Assembly (NCBI RefSeq): GCF_001953885.1
Contig: NZ_MQUS01000033.1
Location: forward strand, 1-64,000
DNA length: 64,000 nucleotides
Direction of reading: 5' to 3'
From: Streptomyces sp. IMTB 2501
Lineage (GTDB): Bacteria; Actinomycetota; Actinomycetes; Streptomycetales; Streptomycetaceae
Shown here: positions 29,740 through 34,762 of the stretch, one piece after another
Layout of the letters: every line of letters starts with the position of its first letter
Position numbering within the stretch: the first letter of the stretch is position 1
Program-made: the position numbers and the translations under genes
The notes under the pieces: generated by a model
Told to the model about the DNA's origin: nothing
The model's database searches: none
What the model saw: only the letters and a program-made list of their open reading frames with translations

Positions 29740-31085
29740 CCGCCCCCGGAACCCGGGCCGCAGCGCCCGCCGAGGACAGCGACGACCTCGATGTCGAGGA
29801 GGCCCTGGCCCTCGTGAGGGAAGCCAAGGACGACCAACCGGGACAGGTGCCCGTACCGCAGCCCGAAGCACACGGTGAGGAGCACCGGGCCATCCCATGG
29901 CGCCAGGCCCGTGAGATCGCCGCCCGCGCCGCCCGTGCCCGCGCTCGCCGTGCCCCCGTCACCGTGCCGCTCGGCAACGCCCTCGGTCTCGTCCTGGCCG
30001 CCTCACTCGACGCGCTGACCGATCTGCCCTCCTTCGACACCTCCGCGATGGACGGCTGGGCGGTCGCTGGGCCCGGCCCCTGGGACGTACGGGACGAGGG
30101 CGTGCTCGCCGGGCACGCACAGCCGGAGCCGCTCACCGACGGCGAGGCGGTCCGCATCGCCACCGGCGCCCGCATCCCCGCCGACACCACCGCCGTGCTG
30201 CGCAGCGAGCACGGCCGCACCGACGCACAGGGCCGGCTCCACGCCACCCGGGAGCTGGCGCACGGCCAGGACATCCGCCCGCGCGCCCAGGAGTGCCGCG
30301 GCGGCGACCAGTTGCTGCCCATCGGCACCGTGGTCACGCCCGCCGTCCTGGGCCTCGCCGCGGCGGCCGGATACGACACCGTCACCGCCGTACCGCGTCC
30401 GCGTGCCGAAGTCCTCGTCCTCGGCGACGAATTGCTGACCGAGGGCCTGCCGCACGACGGGCTGATCCGGGACGCGCTCGGCCCCATGCTGCCGCCCTGG
30501 CTGCGCGCGCTCGGCGCCGAGGTCGTCGCCGTGCGCCGGATCGGCGACGACGCCGAAGCCCTGCACCAGGCCGTCACCGGCTCCGAAGCCGACCTCGTCG
30601 TCACCACCGGCGGCACCGCGGGCGGACCCGTCGACCACGTCCATCCCGTCCTGGAACGCATCGGCGCCGAACTCCTCGTGGACGGCGTCAAGGTGCGCCC
30701 CGGCCACCCCATGCTGCTGGCCCGTACCAAGGACACCCAGCACCTCGTCGGCCTGCCCGGCAACCCCCTCGCCGCCGTCTCCGGCCTGCTCACGCTCGCC
30801 GAGCCGCTGCTGCGGACCCTGGCCGCCCACCCGGCCCCCGAGCGGTACACACTGCCGCTCAAGGAGGCGATCCAGGGACACCCTCACGACACCCGGCTCG
30901 TCCCCGTGGTGCTGCGCGGTGACCGGGCCGTGCCGCTGCACTACAACGGTCCGGCCATGCTCCGCGGGATCGCAGCCGCCGACGCGCTCGCCGTCGTACC
31001 GCCCGGCGGTGCCGGACAGGGTGAGGAGACCGAGCTGCTGGACCTGCCGTGGGCAGCCGCGGGGATCGAGGTGTGTTTCACGTGA
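29736..31085 (+). CDS. moeA: Molybdopterin molybdenumtransferase (MoeA)
   Basis: 449 aa. An N-terminal acidic extension precedes MoeA domains: SFDTSAMDGWAV, VRIATGARIPADTTAVLRSEH, the MoCF-binding core VVTTGGTAGGPVDHVHPVLE and LVGLPGNPLAAVSGLLT. It inserts molybdate into adenylylated molybdopterin. ATG 29736 overlaps mobA (ATGA). Its stop (31083-31085) lies inside the parS palindrome and overlaps the GTG start of the potassium channel gene. Confidence 0.93.
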   Translation: MTAPGTRAAAPAEDSDDLDVEEALALVREAKDDQPGQVPVPQPEAHGEEHRAIPWRQAREIAARAARARARRAPVTVPLGNALGLVLAASLDALTDLPSFDTSAMDGWAVAGPGPWDVRDEGVLAGHAQPEPLTDGEAVRIATGARIPADTTAVLRSEHGRTDAQGRLHATRELAHGQDIRPRAQECRGGDQLLPIGTVVTPAVLGLAAAAGYDTVTAVPRPRAEVLVLGDELLTEGLPHDGLIRDALGPMLPPWLRALGAEVVAVRRIGDDAEALHQAVTGSEADLVVTTGGTAGGPVDHVHPVLERIGAELLVDGVKVRPGHPMLLARTKDTQHLVGLPGNPLAAVSGLLTLAEPLLRTLAAHPAPERYTLPLKEAIQGHPHDTRLVPVVLRGDRAVPLHYNGPAMLRGIAAADALAVVPPGGAGQGEETELLDLPWAAAGIEVCFT

Positions 31086-31088
31086 AAC
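31075..31088. promoter_or_regulatory. parS centromere site (ParB-binding)
   Basis: GTTTCACGTGAAAC, a perfect 14-bp palindrome identical to the parS core known from Streptomyces, where ParB nucleates on many such sites near oriC. It spans the moeA stop and the GTG start of the channel gene. With flanks it matches 15 of 16 bases of TGTTTCACGTGAAACA. Confidence 0.88.
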
Positions 31089-31639
31089 TTCCGGGCCATG
31101 ACGCCATCGCCCGCCAGGCGGGCGATCTGGTGACCCATCGGGTGAAACTCCCGAAGAAAGTGGTGGAGCGCCCGATCCGCCAGGTCGTCAAGCGGCTGCT
31201 CATGGCCCTGCTCGTGCTGGTCGCCACCGCGCTGGTCGTCTACGCCGGCCACGACGGCTACCACGACAACGCCGACGACTCGGTGGACCTGCTCGACGCC
31301 TTCTACTACGCCACCGTGACGCTCTCCACCACCGGATACGGCGACATCACCCCGGTCGGCGACGGCGCCCGGCTCACCAACATCTTCGTCATCACGCCCC
31401 TGCGCGTGCTGTTCCTGATCATCCTGGTCGGCACCACGCTGGAAGTCCTCACCGAACGCACCCGGGAGGAATGGCGCCTGAACCGCTGGAGTCAACGGTT
31501 TGCTGGATGCGCCACAGCCCGGCTCGGCTGTACGTCCAGCACTGAGGGGCAAGCTACGCGGGTCTCGGGGCAGTGGCACACAGCCGGGCTGCGGCCTCTA
31601 TCCCTCTGCGGACTCCACCCCGCCAAATTGCCCCAGTAG
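31082..31639 (+). pseudogene. Potassium channel, N-terminal pore half (gene split by insertion)
   Basis: The first 136 codons are native: a basic N-terminus, membrane helix 1 (LLMALLVLVATALVVYAG), the selectivity filter in VTLSTTGYGDITP and helix 2 (LRVLFLIILVGTTLEVLTE). After NRW at about 31491 the frame enters foreign DNA and adds 49 unrelated residues. The matching TrkA-N half resumes at 34078. GTG 31082 overlaps the moeA stop (GTGA) and has GAGGTG at 8 nt. The truncated product still has a complete two-helix pore and could act as a simple KcsA-like channel without its regulatory domain. Confidence 0.85.
31484..31491 (+). repeat. Direct repeat at left junction of the insert (att-like)
   Basis: CGCTGGAG, repeated exactly at 34070-34077. 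In the restored gene it encodes part of RWR in the loop between the pore helix and the TrkA-N domain. Confidence 0.75.
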
Positions 31640-32204
31640 TTGTGACCTTGGCGGCGAGGCGGTCGTACACATCGAGCGCGGGCTCCAGGCTTGCAGGGGC
31701 CCACTGCCGCTTCGACAGCATGAGCCGATACCGGTCCTGCCAGTCCTGTAGTTCGTAGATCGCCCTCGCTGACGTGTGCCAACATGCTGCCCGTACCTGG
31801 CTTTCCAGGCCTGCCGGAATTCGGAAGGTGAGCTTCTCTGGATAGCCGCCTTCTTTCGATCCCGGCCAGCGTCCTGCATTCCGGGCTCGGGACGGGTAAG
31901 CCGGCCACGGGTGGTCCCAGCCTCGTTCCCTCAGCTCCTGCCGGACACCGAAGGTGACCAAAGCATCAAGCGTGTCCAGCAGTTCGCCTTCTCGCCGTAT
32001 GGCCGTGAGTCTCTGGCGCCAAGCCCATCGCACCTCGGTGGCGAGACGGCGGCTGAGCCGTTCTGTGCTCCACCTGGACTCAGCCGCTAAGGCGATCCGC
32101 CGCTTCCGTTCCTGATTCAACAGATCGCGCAGATTAACCAGCGTCCCGTAAGTGAGTCGAGCCGTTACAGGAACGGTCCCTTCTTCTTTCACGGCATTCA
32201 TCAT
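31554..32204 (-). CDS. Unknown protein of the insert (possible DNA-binding)
   Basis: 216 aa; family not recognised. The N-terminal half is Arg-rich and helical (NLRDLLNQERKRRIALAAESRW, RLATEVRWAWRQRL). The region EKLTFRIPAGLESQVRAACWHTSARAIYELQDWQDRY has a strand-then-two-helices pattern that could be ribbon-helix-helix-like, only a guess. No membrane helix or signal. Start: two adjacent ATGs at 32204 and 32201 with no ribosome binding site; TTGGCA-17 bp-TATGTA just upstream suggests a leaderless transcript. It is divergent from the Cys-rich gene and may regulate it. Confidence 0.6.
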   Translation of the reverse strand: MMNAVKEEGTVPVTARLTYGTLVNLRDLLNQERKRRIALAAESRWSTERLSRRLATEVRWAWRQRLTAIRREGELLDTLDALVTFGVRQELRERGWDHPWPAYPSRARNAGRWPGSKEGGYPEKLTFRIPAGLESQVRAACWHTSARAIYELQDWQDRYRLMLSKRQWAPASLEPALDVYDRLAAKVTTTGAIWRGGVRRGIEAAARLCATAPRPA

Positions 32205-32208
32205 GCAC

Positions 32209-32237
32209 TACATAACTTGCAAGCTTTTTGGTGCCAA
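32209..32237 (-). promoter_or_regulatory. Predicted promoter of the insert's minus-strand gene
   Basis: On the minus strand TTGGCA (32237-32232) and TATGTA (32214-32209) are spaced by 17 bp; the -10 box ends only 4 nt before the first ATG, so the mRNA would have almost no leader. Confidence 0.45.
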
Positions 32238-32295
32238 GCAAGCGGATTGACGGACGAGTTCTTGAGTTGCGGACACGACCATCCCTGCGCAACCT

Positions 32296-32314
32296 GGATT
32301 TCATCGGGAAATCC
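32296..32314. promoter_or_regulatory. Inverted repeat upstream of the Cys-rich gene
   Basis: GGATTTC-ATCGG-GAAATCC, 7-bp arms, 42 bp before the ATG of the Cys-rich protein. Could be an operator or a leader hairpin; the binder is unknown. Confidence 0.45.
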
Positions 32315-32355
32315 GACTCGGCTTTCCCGGGACGCCAACGCGAAGGGACGAAGAA

Positions 32356-33015
32356 ATGACGTCAACCCCGACGGTTAAGTCATCAACGTTTGAGGTGCAC
32401 AATTCTCAGGCGGCCGCAGCGGAGTGGCACCGCCACGCGAGAACCGAGCCCAGCATGAATGCCCTGATCGACGCCATACCGAGCCGGCTTCGACTGCCTC
32501 AGGATGCGGCGATGCCTGAGGGGCCGACCGTCGGCTTCGATTCCACAACCAACCTGTCCGCCCCGCTTCCCGCGCCTGCTGATGTAGCCGCACGGGAACA
32601 GGTCACGAGTGTGAAGAGCAGCTTCTTCGCCAGGACCTTTTCAGGTGCGAGTGGCGAACAACTGGCGGCCTGCGCGACCGTCCTCGAGGCACCCGGAACC
32701 AGCCTGAAGATGGTGGACGCGTTCGTCCTAGAAGCGCATCAGGGCGACCTCCTCGACGCGAAGGAACTGGTGCACGCCAGTGGCTACCAGCTCCAGGAGC
32801 GAGATGGCTGGTGGGACGCGCTGACCGGATGCCTCGGTCGCGACTGCGGCGGCGTATGCCTCAGCGCCGCACTCGCCTGCCCGAAAGTGGACTGGGCTTC
32901 CTTCCTCGTCTGTCTCGCTGGCCGGTGCGGCGTGTGCGTGGTCAAATGCGCCGCCTGCGCCACCTGCAACTGCACCTGGTGGTGCAAGTGGGCCGCCGGC
33001 TGCTGTGATAACTGA
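32356..33015 (+). CDS. Cys-rich secreted-peptide precursor candidate (bacteriocin/RiPP-like)
   Basis: 219 aa. Residues 1-157 are cysteine-poor (one Cys) and hydrophilic, with no classical signal peptide. The last ~62 residues, starting after RDGWWDALT, contain 14 cysteines in clusters (GCLGRDCGGVC, CLAGRCGVCVVKCAACATCNC, WWCKWAAGCC) and end GCCDN. A long leader followed by a compact Cys-rich C-terminus resembles halocin C8-like and other processed bacteriocins or RiPP precursors; this is inference. ATG 32356 follows GAAGGGACGA. The next gene starts 17 bp after its stop. No modification enzyme or transporter is in the insert. Confidence 0.7.
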   Translation: MTSTPTVKSSTFEVHNSQAAAAEWHRHARTEPSMNALIDAIPSRLRLPQDAAMPEGPTVGFDSTTNLSAPLPAPADVAAREQVTSVKSSFFARTFSGASGEQLAACATVLEAPGTSLKMVDAFVLEAHQGDLLDAKELVHASGYQLQERDGWWDALTGCLGRDCGGVCLSAALACPKVDWASFLVCLAGRCGVCVVKCAACATCNCTWWCKWAAGCCDN

Positions 33016-33031
33016 CGGAGAGGAACCGCGT

Positions 33032-33463
33032 GTGAACGCAGTGCGGTGGCTAGAAGTCCCCGTTCAACCACCTTCGGGAAAAAACGAATCCCCTACGGTG
33101 AAATACGGGGTCGGAAACTCTGTAGTCGTCTGCGGAATCGATTCGGCGTATGTGGGTAGTGCCGACGAAGACGTGGTCGCAGAACTTATCGGTCACCCGG
33201 ATGTGCGTCTGCTGAATGCTGACGATCTGCGCAGAATCGCCCCTTTTCCGGGACTTCCGCTGACGTGGGAAGTCCTCGAAGGTCAGATTCCAGGCCGTCA
33301 CGGTCAGCATCACGCCCGAGGGGTAATCGGCTTGGGTGACGTGATTTCAGCAATCACCCGCAGGGCTCGAATCCCGGAGTGCGGGAGCTGCGCGCGGAGG
33401 CGCGTCGGCTTGAACCGGATCACCGTGTGGGGCTGGTGGCGAGACCGTCCCGCAGAGGCCTGA
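33032..33463 (+). CDS. Unknown protein with C-terminal CxxCxxR motif
   Basis: 143 aa, not recognised. The N-terminal ~95 residues look globular (YGVGNSVVVCGIDSAYVGSA, DVRLLNADDLRRIAPFPGLPLTWEVLEG). Near the end, IPECGSCARRRVGLNRI has the C-x2-C-x2-R-x4-N pattern seen at the C-termini of some small phage and peptide-cluster proteins of unknown role. GTG 33032 is chosen because GGAGAGG lies 7 nt upstream; a start at 33005 would lie inside the preceding gene. It is co-oriented and 17 bp from the Cys-rich gene, so it may be an immunity or processing partner. Confidence 0.6.
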   Translation: MNAVRWLEVPVQPPSGKNESPTVKYGVGNSVVVCGIDSAYVGSADEDVVAELIGHPDVRLLNADDLRRIAPFPGLPLTWEVLEGQIPGRHGQHHARGVIGLGDVISAITRRARIPECGSCARRRVGLNRITVWGWWRDRPAEA

Positions 33464-33669
33464 ACGACTAGTCGGCACGATGACGGTTCCGGGTCGCGGG
33501 CGCCGCTTCTCGGAACCGTCGCGCTGCTGTGGCGGCTACTGGTGTACCAGTGGTCAAGGGCCAGAGCGCGATACTATGCCGCTCTCTGAGATCGGTGCTG
33601 GTTGAGGAAAGTTGGGTTCAGAACGGAAGTTCGAGCCTGGCGGCGCCTCGTCTGATGGTTATGACCTGT
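33464..33669. other. Non-coding stretch in the insert
   Basis: About 200 bp after the CxxC protein gene with no supported gene. It includes the inverted repeat CTACTGGTGTACCAGTGG-type element near 33536-33553 (ACTGG-TGTA-CCAGT), possibly a terminator or operator remnant. Confidence 0.4.
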
Positions 33670-34045
33670 TCCTTCGTGGAAGTCACGCGAAGCCGCTTCT
33701 CGCGGGTACCGGGACCAGAGTTCCTTGTCCAGCTCGTCAGCGAACTAAAAGCAGGGATGGGAGGGACTTGCGGTCGGCTTCCAGGGCCCTGGTGCCCATG
33801 CCGATGGCTTCTTCGATCTCGCCCATGCGGGCGGCGGCAACTCCCAGAGTGAGGCGGGCTTCTGCGGCGCGCATGGGTGAGATCTCGGTGCCGTCAAGGC
33901 CCGTGCTGATGCGGATCATCGATCGGGCGTGGGTGTCACCGGTACCGGGGCCCTCGTCCACTTCGAAGGACAGCCGGACCAGACCGGCCCAGTTCTGCCC
34001 TGCTAAGTCTCCCCAACGTGCGCGCTGCACAAGGTCGTTGTCCAT
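33670..34045 (-). pseudogene. Fragment of an XRE/TPR-type transcriptional regulator
   Basis: From 34045 the frame reads 102 codons with the C-terminal TPR pattern of Streptomyces XRE regulators (SPMRAAEARLTLGVAAARMGEIEEAIGMGTRALEADRKSLPSLLLV) and then stops. Directly after the stop, the +1 frame continues the expected end of the family (ELDKELWSRYPREAASRDFHE), then loses resemblance. So it is truncated at both ends (no helix-turn-helix) and frameshifted. Its ATG at 34045 is probably not a real start. Confidence 0.7.
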
Positions 34046-34069
34046 AGCCGTAGGGTACTTTCGTGAAAG

Positions 34070-34077
34070 CGCTGGAG
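34070..34077 (+). repeat. Direct repeat at right junction of the insert (att-like)
   Basis: CGCTGGAG, second copy. Downstream of it the channel gene resumes in its original frame. Confidence 0.75.
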
Positions 34078-34084
34078 GACCACC

Positions 34085-34762
34085 TTGCGCGACAACACCG
34101 TCGTCATCGGCTTCGGCACCAAGGGGCGGTCGGCGATCCAGACCGTCTGTTCGACGGGGCTGAAGCAGGAGCAGGTGGTCGTGGTCGACCCGAGCGCCAA
34201 GGCCGTCGACGCGGCCACCGCCGAGGGCTACGCGGGAGTCATGGGCGACGCCACCCGCAGTGACGTGCTCAAACAGGCCGAACTGCACAGGGCCCGCCAG
34301 ATCATCGTCGCTCCCCAGCGCGACGACACCGCCGTCCTCGTCACGCTGACGGCCCGGCAGCTCAACCGGAGCGCGAAGATCGTGGCCGCCGTGCGCGAGG
34401 AGGAGAACGCGCCGCTGCTCAAGCAGTCCGGGGCCGACGCCGTCATCACCAGCGCCAGCGCGGCCGGCCGGCTGCTCGGCCTGTCCGTGCTCAGTCCCGC
34501 CGCCGGCATGGTCATGGAAGACCTGATCCAGCAGGGCAGCGGGCTGGACCTCGTCGAACGCCCGGTGGCCCGCGCCGAGGTGGGCAAGCGGACGCGCGAG
34601 ACCGACGACCTCGTGGTGAGCGTCGTACGCGGGCATCGGGTGCTCGGTTACGACGACCCGGCCGTCGGTACCCTTCAGCTGACCGACCGGCTCATCACGA
34701 TCGTCCGCGCGTCCCCCGGTGCCCAGATCACCTCGGACAACCGGCCGTTGCAGCGCGACTGA
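34085..34762 (+). CDS. TrkA-N/RCK regulatory half of the split potassium channel
   Basis: 225 aa. Rossmann TrkA-N domain with TVVIGFGTKGRSAIQTV (GxGxxG-like), acidic ribose-binding VVVDPSAKAVD, and MGDATRSDVLKQAEL; then a short C-terminal domain. In the restored gene it follows the pore half. Here it has TTG 34085 with GGAGGA at 34074-34079, which partly derives from the insertion junction sequence, and TAGGGT at 34051-34056 in the insert could act as a promoter. It may therefore be made as a free RCK protein, or be silent. Confidence 0.75.
   Translation: MRDNTVVIGFGTKGRSAIQTVCSTGLKQEQVVVVDPSAKAVDAATAEGYAGVMGDATRSDVLKQAELHRARQIIVAPQRDDTAVLVTLTARQLNRSAKIVAAVREEENAPLLKQSGADAVITSASAAGRLLGLSVLSPAAGMVMEDLIQQGSGLDLVERPVARAEVGKRTRETDDLVVSVVRGHRVLGYDDPAVGTLQLTDRLITIVRASPGAQITSDNRPLQRD

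Follow-up and report, generated by a model that had tools for sequence, protein, structure and literature searches.

Halocin C8 has a layout in which one gene encodes a long N-terminal part followed by a Cys-rich C-terminal part of peptide size, and its export signal is of the Tat type. In the title of Sun et al. 2005, as cited in PMC12893001, a single gene is credited with both halocin C8 production and immunity.

The 64,000-nucleotide stretch of DNA analysed here (the window) comes from a Streptomyces-like bacterium, in which a gene, P1, sits on a small insert splitting a potassium-channel gene. P1 was originally predicted to be a counterpart in layout of halocin C8. The long N-terminal part and the Cys-rich C-terminal part are indeed common to P1 and the haloarchaeal family (TIGR04449), whereas P1 differs in the 14 Cys residues of the latter part, in lacking a recognisable signal peptide and in being accompanied by a second conserved gene, P2. 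Membership of the halocin C8 family was rejected, as TIGR04449 (cut-off 24 bits) matched neither P1 nor its N- or C-terminal part in a scan to E = 10, in which HMMER filters drop most matches above approximately 0.1. The separate searches of the two parts envisaged in the original prediction yielded no NCBIfam match at E up to 10, and TIGR04449 had no match in 121 genomes, including the source genome, while the control, Haloferax volcanii, was matched. Because of the missing model match and the lack of a recognisable signal peptide, the comparison with halocin C8 holds for the layout only. RiPP precursors generally have a dedicated modifying enzyme nearby, unlike the insert carrying P1 and P2, on which no modification enzyme, protease or exporter was found, as the original prediction had stated. 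The portions of the literature consulted on halocin C8 in Streptomyces, on PatG with small or Cys-rich peptides, on the PGFTAE start and on Cys-rich bacteriocins of actinobacteria held nothing on point.

P1 and its downstream partner P2

The features of the insert and its junctions are as follows.

31484..31491, no strand: left 8-bp direct repeat CGCTGGAG, insertion site in the potassium-channel gene
31554..32204, minus strand: P3, divergent gene of 216 aa, common to the window and a plasmid cassette
32356..33015, plus strand: P1, ATG start, 219 aa, with a variable N-terminal part (1-149) and a C-terminal part (150-219) holding the 14 invariant cysteines
32803..33012, plus strand: conserved Cys/Trp module of P1 (residues 150-219), a possible mature peptide if released after R149
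33032..33463, plus strand: P2, GTG start, 143 aa, N-terminal domain without known family and C-terminal GLGD..IT..ARIPECGSC..RR..LN module
33482..33520, plus strand: inverted repeat after P2, a possible terminator (18-nt arms, 83% complementary, 3-nt loop)
34070..34077, no strand: right 8-bp direct repeat CGCTGGAG; the insert is 31492-34077 if one copy is counted

Two relatives of P1 were found, one on plasmid NZ_CP109048.1 of Streptomyces sp. NBC_00637, the sole match among 72,556 plasmid records, and the other in Acrocarpospora corrugata (NZ_BLAD01000085.1; 45% identity over residues 1-218), which was recovered in a second genome scan using an alignment of the window and plasmid forms. P1 contains 15 cysteines (residues 106, 159, 164, 168, 175, 186, 191, 194, 198, 201, 204, 206, 210, 216 and 217), of which 14 lie in its last 61 residues (159-217), bearing out the predicted 14 cysteines in the last ~62. 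None of 20000 codon shuffles of the P1 ORF reached 14 cysteines per 62-residue window. Among the 535 stop-to-stop frames of at least 62 residues in the whole window, one other frame (minus strand, 87 residues) also reaches 14 and a third (plus strand, 69 residues) has 13 in 62 residues, so Cys density alone is weak evidence. P1 is nevertheless a real gene under constraint, because it is conserved in both relatives found (219 and 218 aa), which keep its start, its length and all 14 module cysteines; these are invariant in the alignment of the three known proteins. In neither relative is the Cys-rich part a domain of a larger enzyme, and loss of its cysteines, the other finding that would have spoken against the original prediction, is seen in neither.

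From R149 on, P1 shares 65 of 71 residues (92%) with the plasmid form and 56 of 71 (79%) with the Acrocarpospora form, as against 86 of 148 (58%) and 42 of 145 (29%), respectively, before R149. Likewise, dN/dS between the window and plasmid genes (NG86) is approximately 0.36 over residues 1-150, falling to 0.11 over residues 151-219. The conservation border lies sharply at R149, in the sequence R-DGWW, and this border and the unequal identity argue for two units of P1 under different constraint, which in turn suggests that one part carries the other as its payload and that cleavage may follow R149. The two-part layout of the prediction thus stands. Its Cys-poor N-terminal part of ~157 residues is Cys-poor as described, with C106 only, but the border falls a few residues earlier, at R149. 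C106 is common to the window and plasmid forms, and the single N-part cysteine of the Acrocarpospora form is located elsewhere. The module is the most conserved part of P1 and residues 1-149 are variable, which inverts the usual leader/core pattern and sets the module apart from most RiPP cores and most toxins engaged in an arms race.

The module is hydrophobic, Trp-rich, without histidine and not cationic (K+R 5, D+E 5), and it has a C-x3-C-x2-C arrangement (C194, C198 and C201) and several CxxC spacings, both kept in all three proteins. No signal peptide was recognisable in P1 by hydropathy and inspection. The peak 19-residue Kyte-Doolittle mean over residues 1-78 is 0.29, compared to 1.01 and 1.06 in the relatives; by inspection, the first 60 residues of P1 have neither a hydrophobic stretch nor a twin arginine, and the relatives have RR near residues 21-26 that is followed by no hydrophobic stretch. 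A search of 32200-33600 gave no promoter-like site, and one of 31000-34200 gave no Rfam match at E up to 0.5.

Searches with P1 gave no match in Pfam, NCBIfam, PHROGs, PADLOC or the PDB sequences, and its family is without a name in these libraries. AlphaFold models built from two sequences were poor, with mean pLDDT of 51.5 for P1 and 51.1 for P2. The model gives the N-terminal part of P1 a strand, two helices and an antiparallel sheet, and block-mean pLDDT there is 52-81 as far as residue 130. The Cys module reaches only pLDDT 26-38 by blocks, so the structure prediction of the Cys core that had been proposed as a check gave no confident model. Foldseek returned nothing at E below 0.001 for either protein. 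VIA-align rows for the N-terminal part of the two-sequence model were led by a Tim21 fusion (Z 5.8, rmsd 3.8, 99 aligned), with a monellin variant (Z 5.0, rmsd 4.1, 90 aligned) and a stefin-based Affimer (Z 4.5, rmsd 4.5, 91 aligned) among the others; a cystatin-like pro-region occurs in cathelicidin precursors. Since these rows are middling and mixed, no fold is claimed. Six P2 rows in the PDB sequence search (best E 0.46) were taken as chance. Two classes were rejected for P1: a classic 4Fe-4S ferredoxin, whose spacing, CxxCxxCxxxCP, is absent, and a lanthipeptide, since the module offers just 5 Ser/Thr for its 14 Cys.

P2, which the original prediction had overlooked together with the pattern of conserved module and variable N-terminal part, starts 16 bases after the P1 stop codon and lies directly downstream of P1 in all three loci (window, plasmid and Acrocarpospora). 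It is 78% identical to the plasmid copy and 59% to the Acrocarpospora copy, and its most conserved block, GLGD..CGSC..LN, falls within the last 50 residues. Many thiol-disulphide proteins have an active site of the CGxC type, and on this motif reading P2 may be thiol-active. The inverted repeat that follows P2 is absent from the output of the terminator scan, for which a T run is required.

The mobile insert and the distribution of its genes

The potassium-channel gene (Ion_trans_2 and TrkA_N) is split into 31049-31491 and 34070-34762 by the 2.6 kb insert (31492-34077; ~2.59 kb), which, as far as the scans show, contains P3, P1, P2 and a gene fragment and has a GC content of 63%, compared to ~71% on either side. 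Five uninterrupted channel genes of other genomes align to the window as far as 31491, and the alignment resumes at 34064-34070; CGCTGGAG, present at both junctions of the window, occurs once in the matching 70 bp of one channel gene (genome G003). The repeats could stem from duplication of the target site or mark a recombination core. Neither a transposase nor an integrase gene was seen on the insert, and the genes flanking it look by eye like housekeeping genes. The TrkA_N half of the channel has a strong match in 12 of 15 genomes, the source genome included, with no second match in the latter at E 1e-30. The P1-P2 unit sits on a mobile insert, and the predicted mobile setting is matched by the insert between 8-bp repeats and the relative on a plasmid. 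At the right end of the insert, a minus-strand frame (33737-34063) matches TPR weakly, under the Pfam cut-off, and could be the terminal piece of a disrupted gene.

P3 is 68% identical to its plasmid-cassette copy. It is unlikely to be a member of the core unit, because no match was found at the Acrocarpospora locus and its family occurs mostly without P1: 45 plasmid records, many of them Streptomyces plasmids, hold a family member and only one of them has a P1 match. The family was found in 19 of 392 genomes of the genus, including the source genome. P3 probably either travels with the element as a passenger or regulates it. Just upstream of P3 (32205-32225), the 19 nt GCACTACATAACTTGCAAG, with the short palindrome CTTGCAAG, are identical in the window and the plasmid, and could be an operator of P3. 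Among the matches listed, 5 of 20 P3-family genes lie within ~1.7 kb of the end of a plasmid record (e.g. NZ_CP134205.1 450461-451048 and NZ_CP109315.1 330487-331074); should those ends be telomeres, P3 may function at them.

Single-sequence P1 scans of species genomes and of viral contigs, and tblastn with P1 in 50,697 phage records, gave no relative, nor did viral scans with the two-sequence P1 alignment, the Cys module alone or P2; the species-genome and viral scans work by short peptide patterns, which relatives can escape. In whole-genome searches, the source genome was the only convincing match for P1 in the genus (1 of 295) and the class (1 of 325), and for the Cys module alone in the phylum (1 of 227). 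One other family, searched without a positive control, gave matches in 0 of 14 genomes. Relatives may have been missed, because these searches scored only part of the first-look candidates (at most 10 per genome for the genus, 9 for the class and 26 for the phylum). As far as seen, the P1 family is rare and scattered.

Several weaker matches were set aside. Twelve genus-search rows for P1 (E 0.0025-0.0098), partial and in several cases running through stops, were taken as chance, three of them (L003, L005 and L010) having been inspected. One class-search match of P1 (G313, E 8.6e-4) and one phylum-search match of the Cys module (G782, E 0.0057) were taken as chance from the match line alone, and a P2 match (G310, E 1.7e-4) was judged so after its alignment was viewed. 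In genome G217, a decayed P2 end with an internal stop was observed (L051 5173-5418, minus strand); the 11 kb read there contained no match to P1. Transposase remnants (DUF772 and DDE_Tnp_1_6) and a DUF6444 frame lie upstream of the Acrocarpospora P1-P2 pair (L043 4001-5761), and the remnants are a further sign of mobility.

The C-terminal module of P2 and PatG-type loci

The end of P2 resembles a group of small peptides with a CGGC motif (phrog_32048-like) encoded next to PatG genes, with GLGD..T..I.pCGxC..R..LN shared over the last ~50 residues. phrog_32048 matches the P2 block in all three members (best E 0.0025), none of 1000 shuffles reached the score of any of the 15 pairs formed with five CGGC peptides, and hhalign gave a probability of 96.8, from very thin alignments. 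As judged by these comparisons, the C-terminus of P2 is homologous to the PatG-associated CGGC peptides. P2 differs from them in an additional N-terminal domain of ~90 residues and in lacking the [IL]PGF start, and neither a PatG nor an S8 gene was found alongside it.

Five CGGC loci were examined, two in genomes of the same genus (G013 and G008; 2 of 41 genomes) and three on plasmids of Sinorhizobium mexicanum, Streptomyces xanthophaeus and Streptomyces sp. NBC_01568. Plasmid matches came from six records, one of which is the plasmid relative of P2, the Mesorhizobium and second Sinorhizobium hits being left out. The CGGC peptide gene directly precedes a PatG_D/PatG_C gene in all five loci, and an S8 protease gene belongs to the cluster in four, directly before the CGGC peptide in three, where the peptide gene thus lies between the S8 and PatG genes, and after the PatG gene in G013; at the S. 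xanthophaeus locus no S8 protease is annotated in the 10 kb read. The G013 peptide is accompanied by relatives of the PatA/PatG cyanobactin proteases that score below the cut-off of TIGR03895. A second small peptide, rich in Cys and sharing the [IL]PGF start, was found at two of the five loci. In L052 (2066-4539) and L053 (3727-6132), both from the same genus, the set comprises an S8 protease, PatA-like in L052, the CGGC peptide, PatG_D/PatG_C and a small Cys-rich [IL]PGFTAE peptide; CGGC, PatG_D/C and S8 genes also occur together on a Sinorhizobium plasmid and a Streptomyces plasmid. None of the libraries searched has a name for this peptide system.

The module of P1 is not like the two Cys-rich PatG-locus peptides beyond composition, as 1627 and 469 of 2000 shuffles, respectively, scored as high. 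No PatA/PatG protease was found on the P1-P2 insert, nor PatG_C in the whole source genome, and the plasmid P1-P2 locus has no S8 or PatG gene annotated in 20.7 kb, for which the gene table is incomplete; the flanks of the Acrocarpospora locus were scanned in part. CGGC-related modules were also found in four Nonlabens phage records; in the one examined (L076 1965-2324) a single gene separates the CGGC gene from that of the terminase large subunit. As this occurrence is away from any PatG gene seen, the CGGC module is not confined to PatG loci.

Possible roles of P1 and P2

We tentatively read P1 as the precursor of a Cys-rich peptide of ~70 residues with a domain-sized pro-region, and P2 as its thiol partner, with a probability of about 0.4. 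The two form a two-gene mobile unit, in which the N-terminal part of P1 (~149 residues) would carry, and perhaps keep inactive, the Cys/Trp-rich module of ~70 residues. A host protease would release the module at the conserved R-DGWW border, up to seven disulphide bonds would stabilise it, and P2 may help through its CGSC motif to oxidise, sort or load the cysteines of P1; alternatively, P2 may provide immunity to the producer. Release, disulphides, the thiol role and the biological role are steps that we infer, the last being likely to be antagonism or signalling between actinomycetes. The invariant cysteines, the R149 border, the constant downstream position of P2, the homology of the P2 end and the mobile setting all point to the precursor reading. 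Counting against it are the lack of a recognisable signal peptide, of an exporter or protease on the insert and of PatG_C in the genome, the strongly conserved and non-cationic module, its dissimilarity to the PatG-locus Cys-rich peptides, the CGGC module of phages away from PatG, and the low-confidence model of the Cys module.

The main rival, which we consider somewhat unlikely, is that the P1 module may be an intracellular metal- or Fe-S-binding domain acting as a sensor, store or electron carrier, with nothing secreted and P2 loading the module or serving as its redox partner. Such a role would account for the main objections to the precursor reading, the absence of a recognisable export signal and the highly conserved module; the lack of an exporter on the insert and the C-x3-C-x2-C and CxxC spacings kept in all three proteins also fit it, whereas the missing Pfam, NCBIfam and PDB-sequence matches and the hydrophobic, Trp-rich composition without histidine do not, and we judge a scattered mobile distribution to be unusual for a metal protein. 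The homology of the P2 end to the CGGC peptides, and the Cys-rich companion in two of five PatG loci, would also suit a two-peptide RiPP-like system related to PatA/PatG, with both P1 and P2 as substrates of enzymes encoded elsewhere in the genome. With no PatG_C match in the source genome, no [IL]PGF start in P1 or P2 and, within its incomplete annotation, no S8 or PatG gene around the plasmid copy, this arrangement appears distinctly unlikely. Two small adjoining genes, found together in all three loci including a plasmid and a mobile insert, might finally be a toxin-antitoxin pair for plasmid maintenance, in which the hydrophobic Cys module would be toxic to its own cell and neutralised by P2; PADLOC and the other libraries gave no match pointing to toxins or antitoxins, we know of no familiar toxin-antitoxin family that the order and sizes of P1 and P2 fit, and we regard the proposal as very improbable.

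Returning to P1 as a peptide precursor, its fuller form, a new mobile two-gene peptide system with a released 14-Cys module and a captured CGxC module as partner, is doubtful and on balance unlikely. A narrow literature search, limited to partial texts, returned no thiol-partner role for the CGGC peptides of PatG loci; if the fuller form is true, these may also be thiol partners of Cys-rich peptides. Actinomycetes would then be exchanging a family of Cys-rich peptides not described before, with seven possible disulphides in ~60 residues, and the nameless CGGC peptides of PatG-type loci, here seen in actinomycetes and rhizobia, would gain a possible function.
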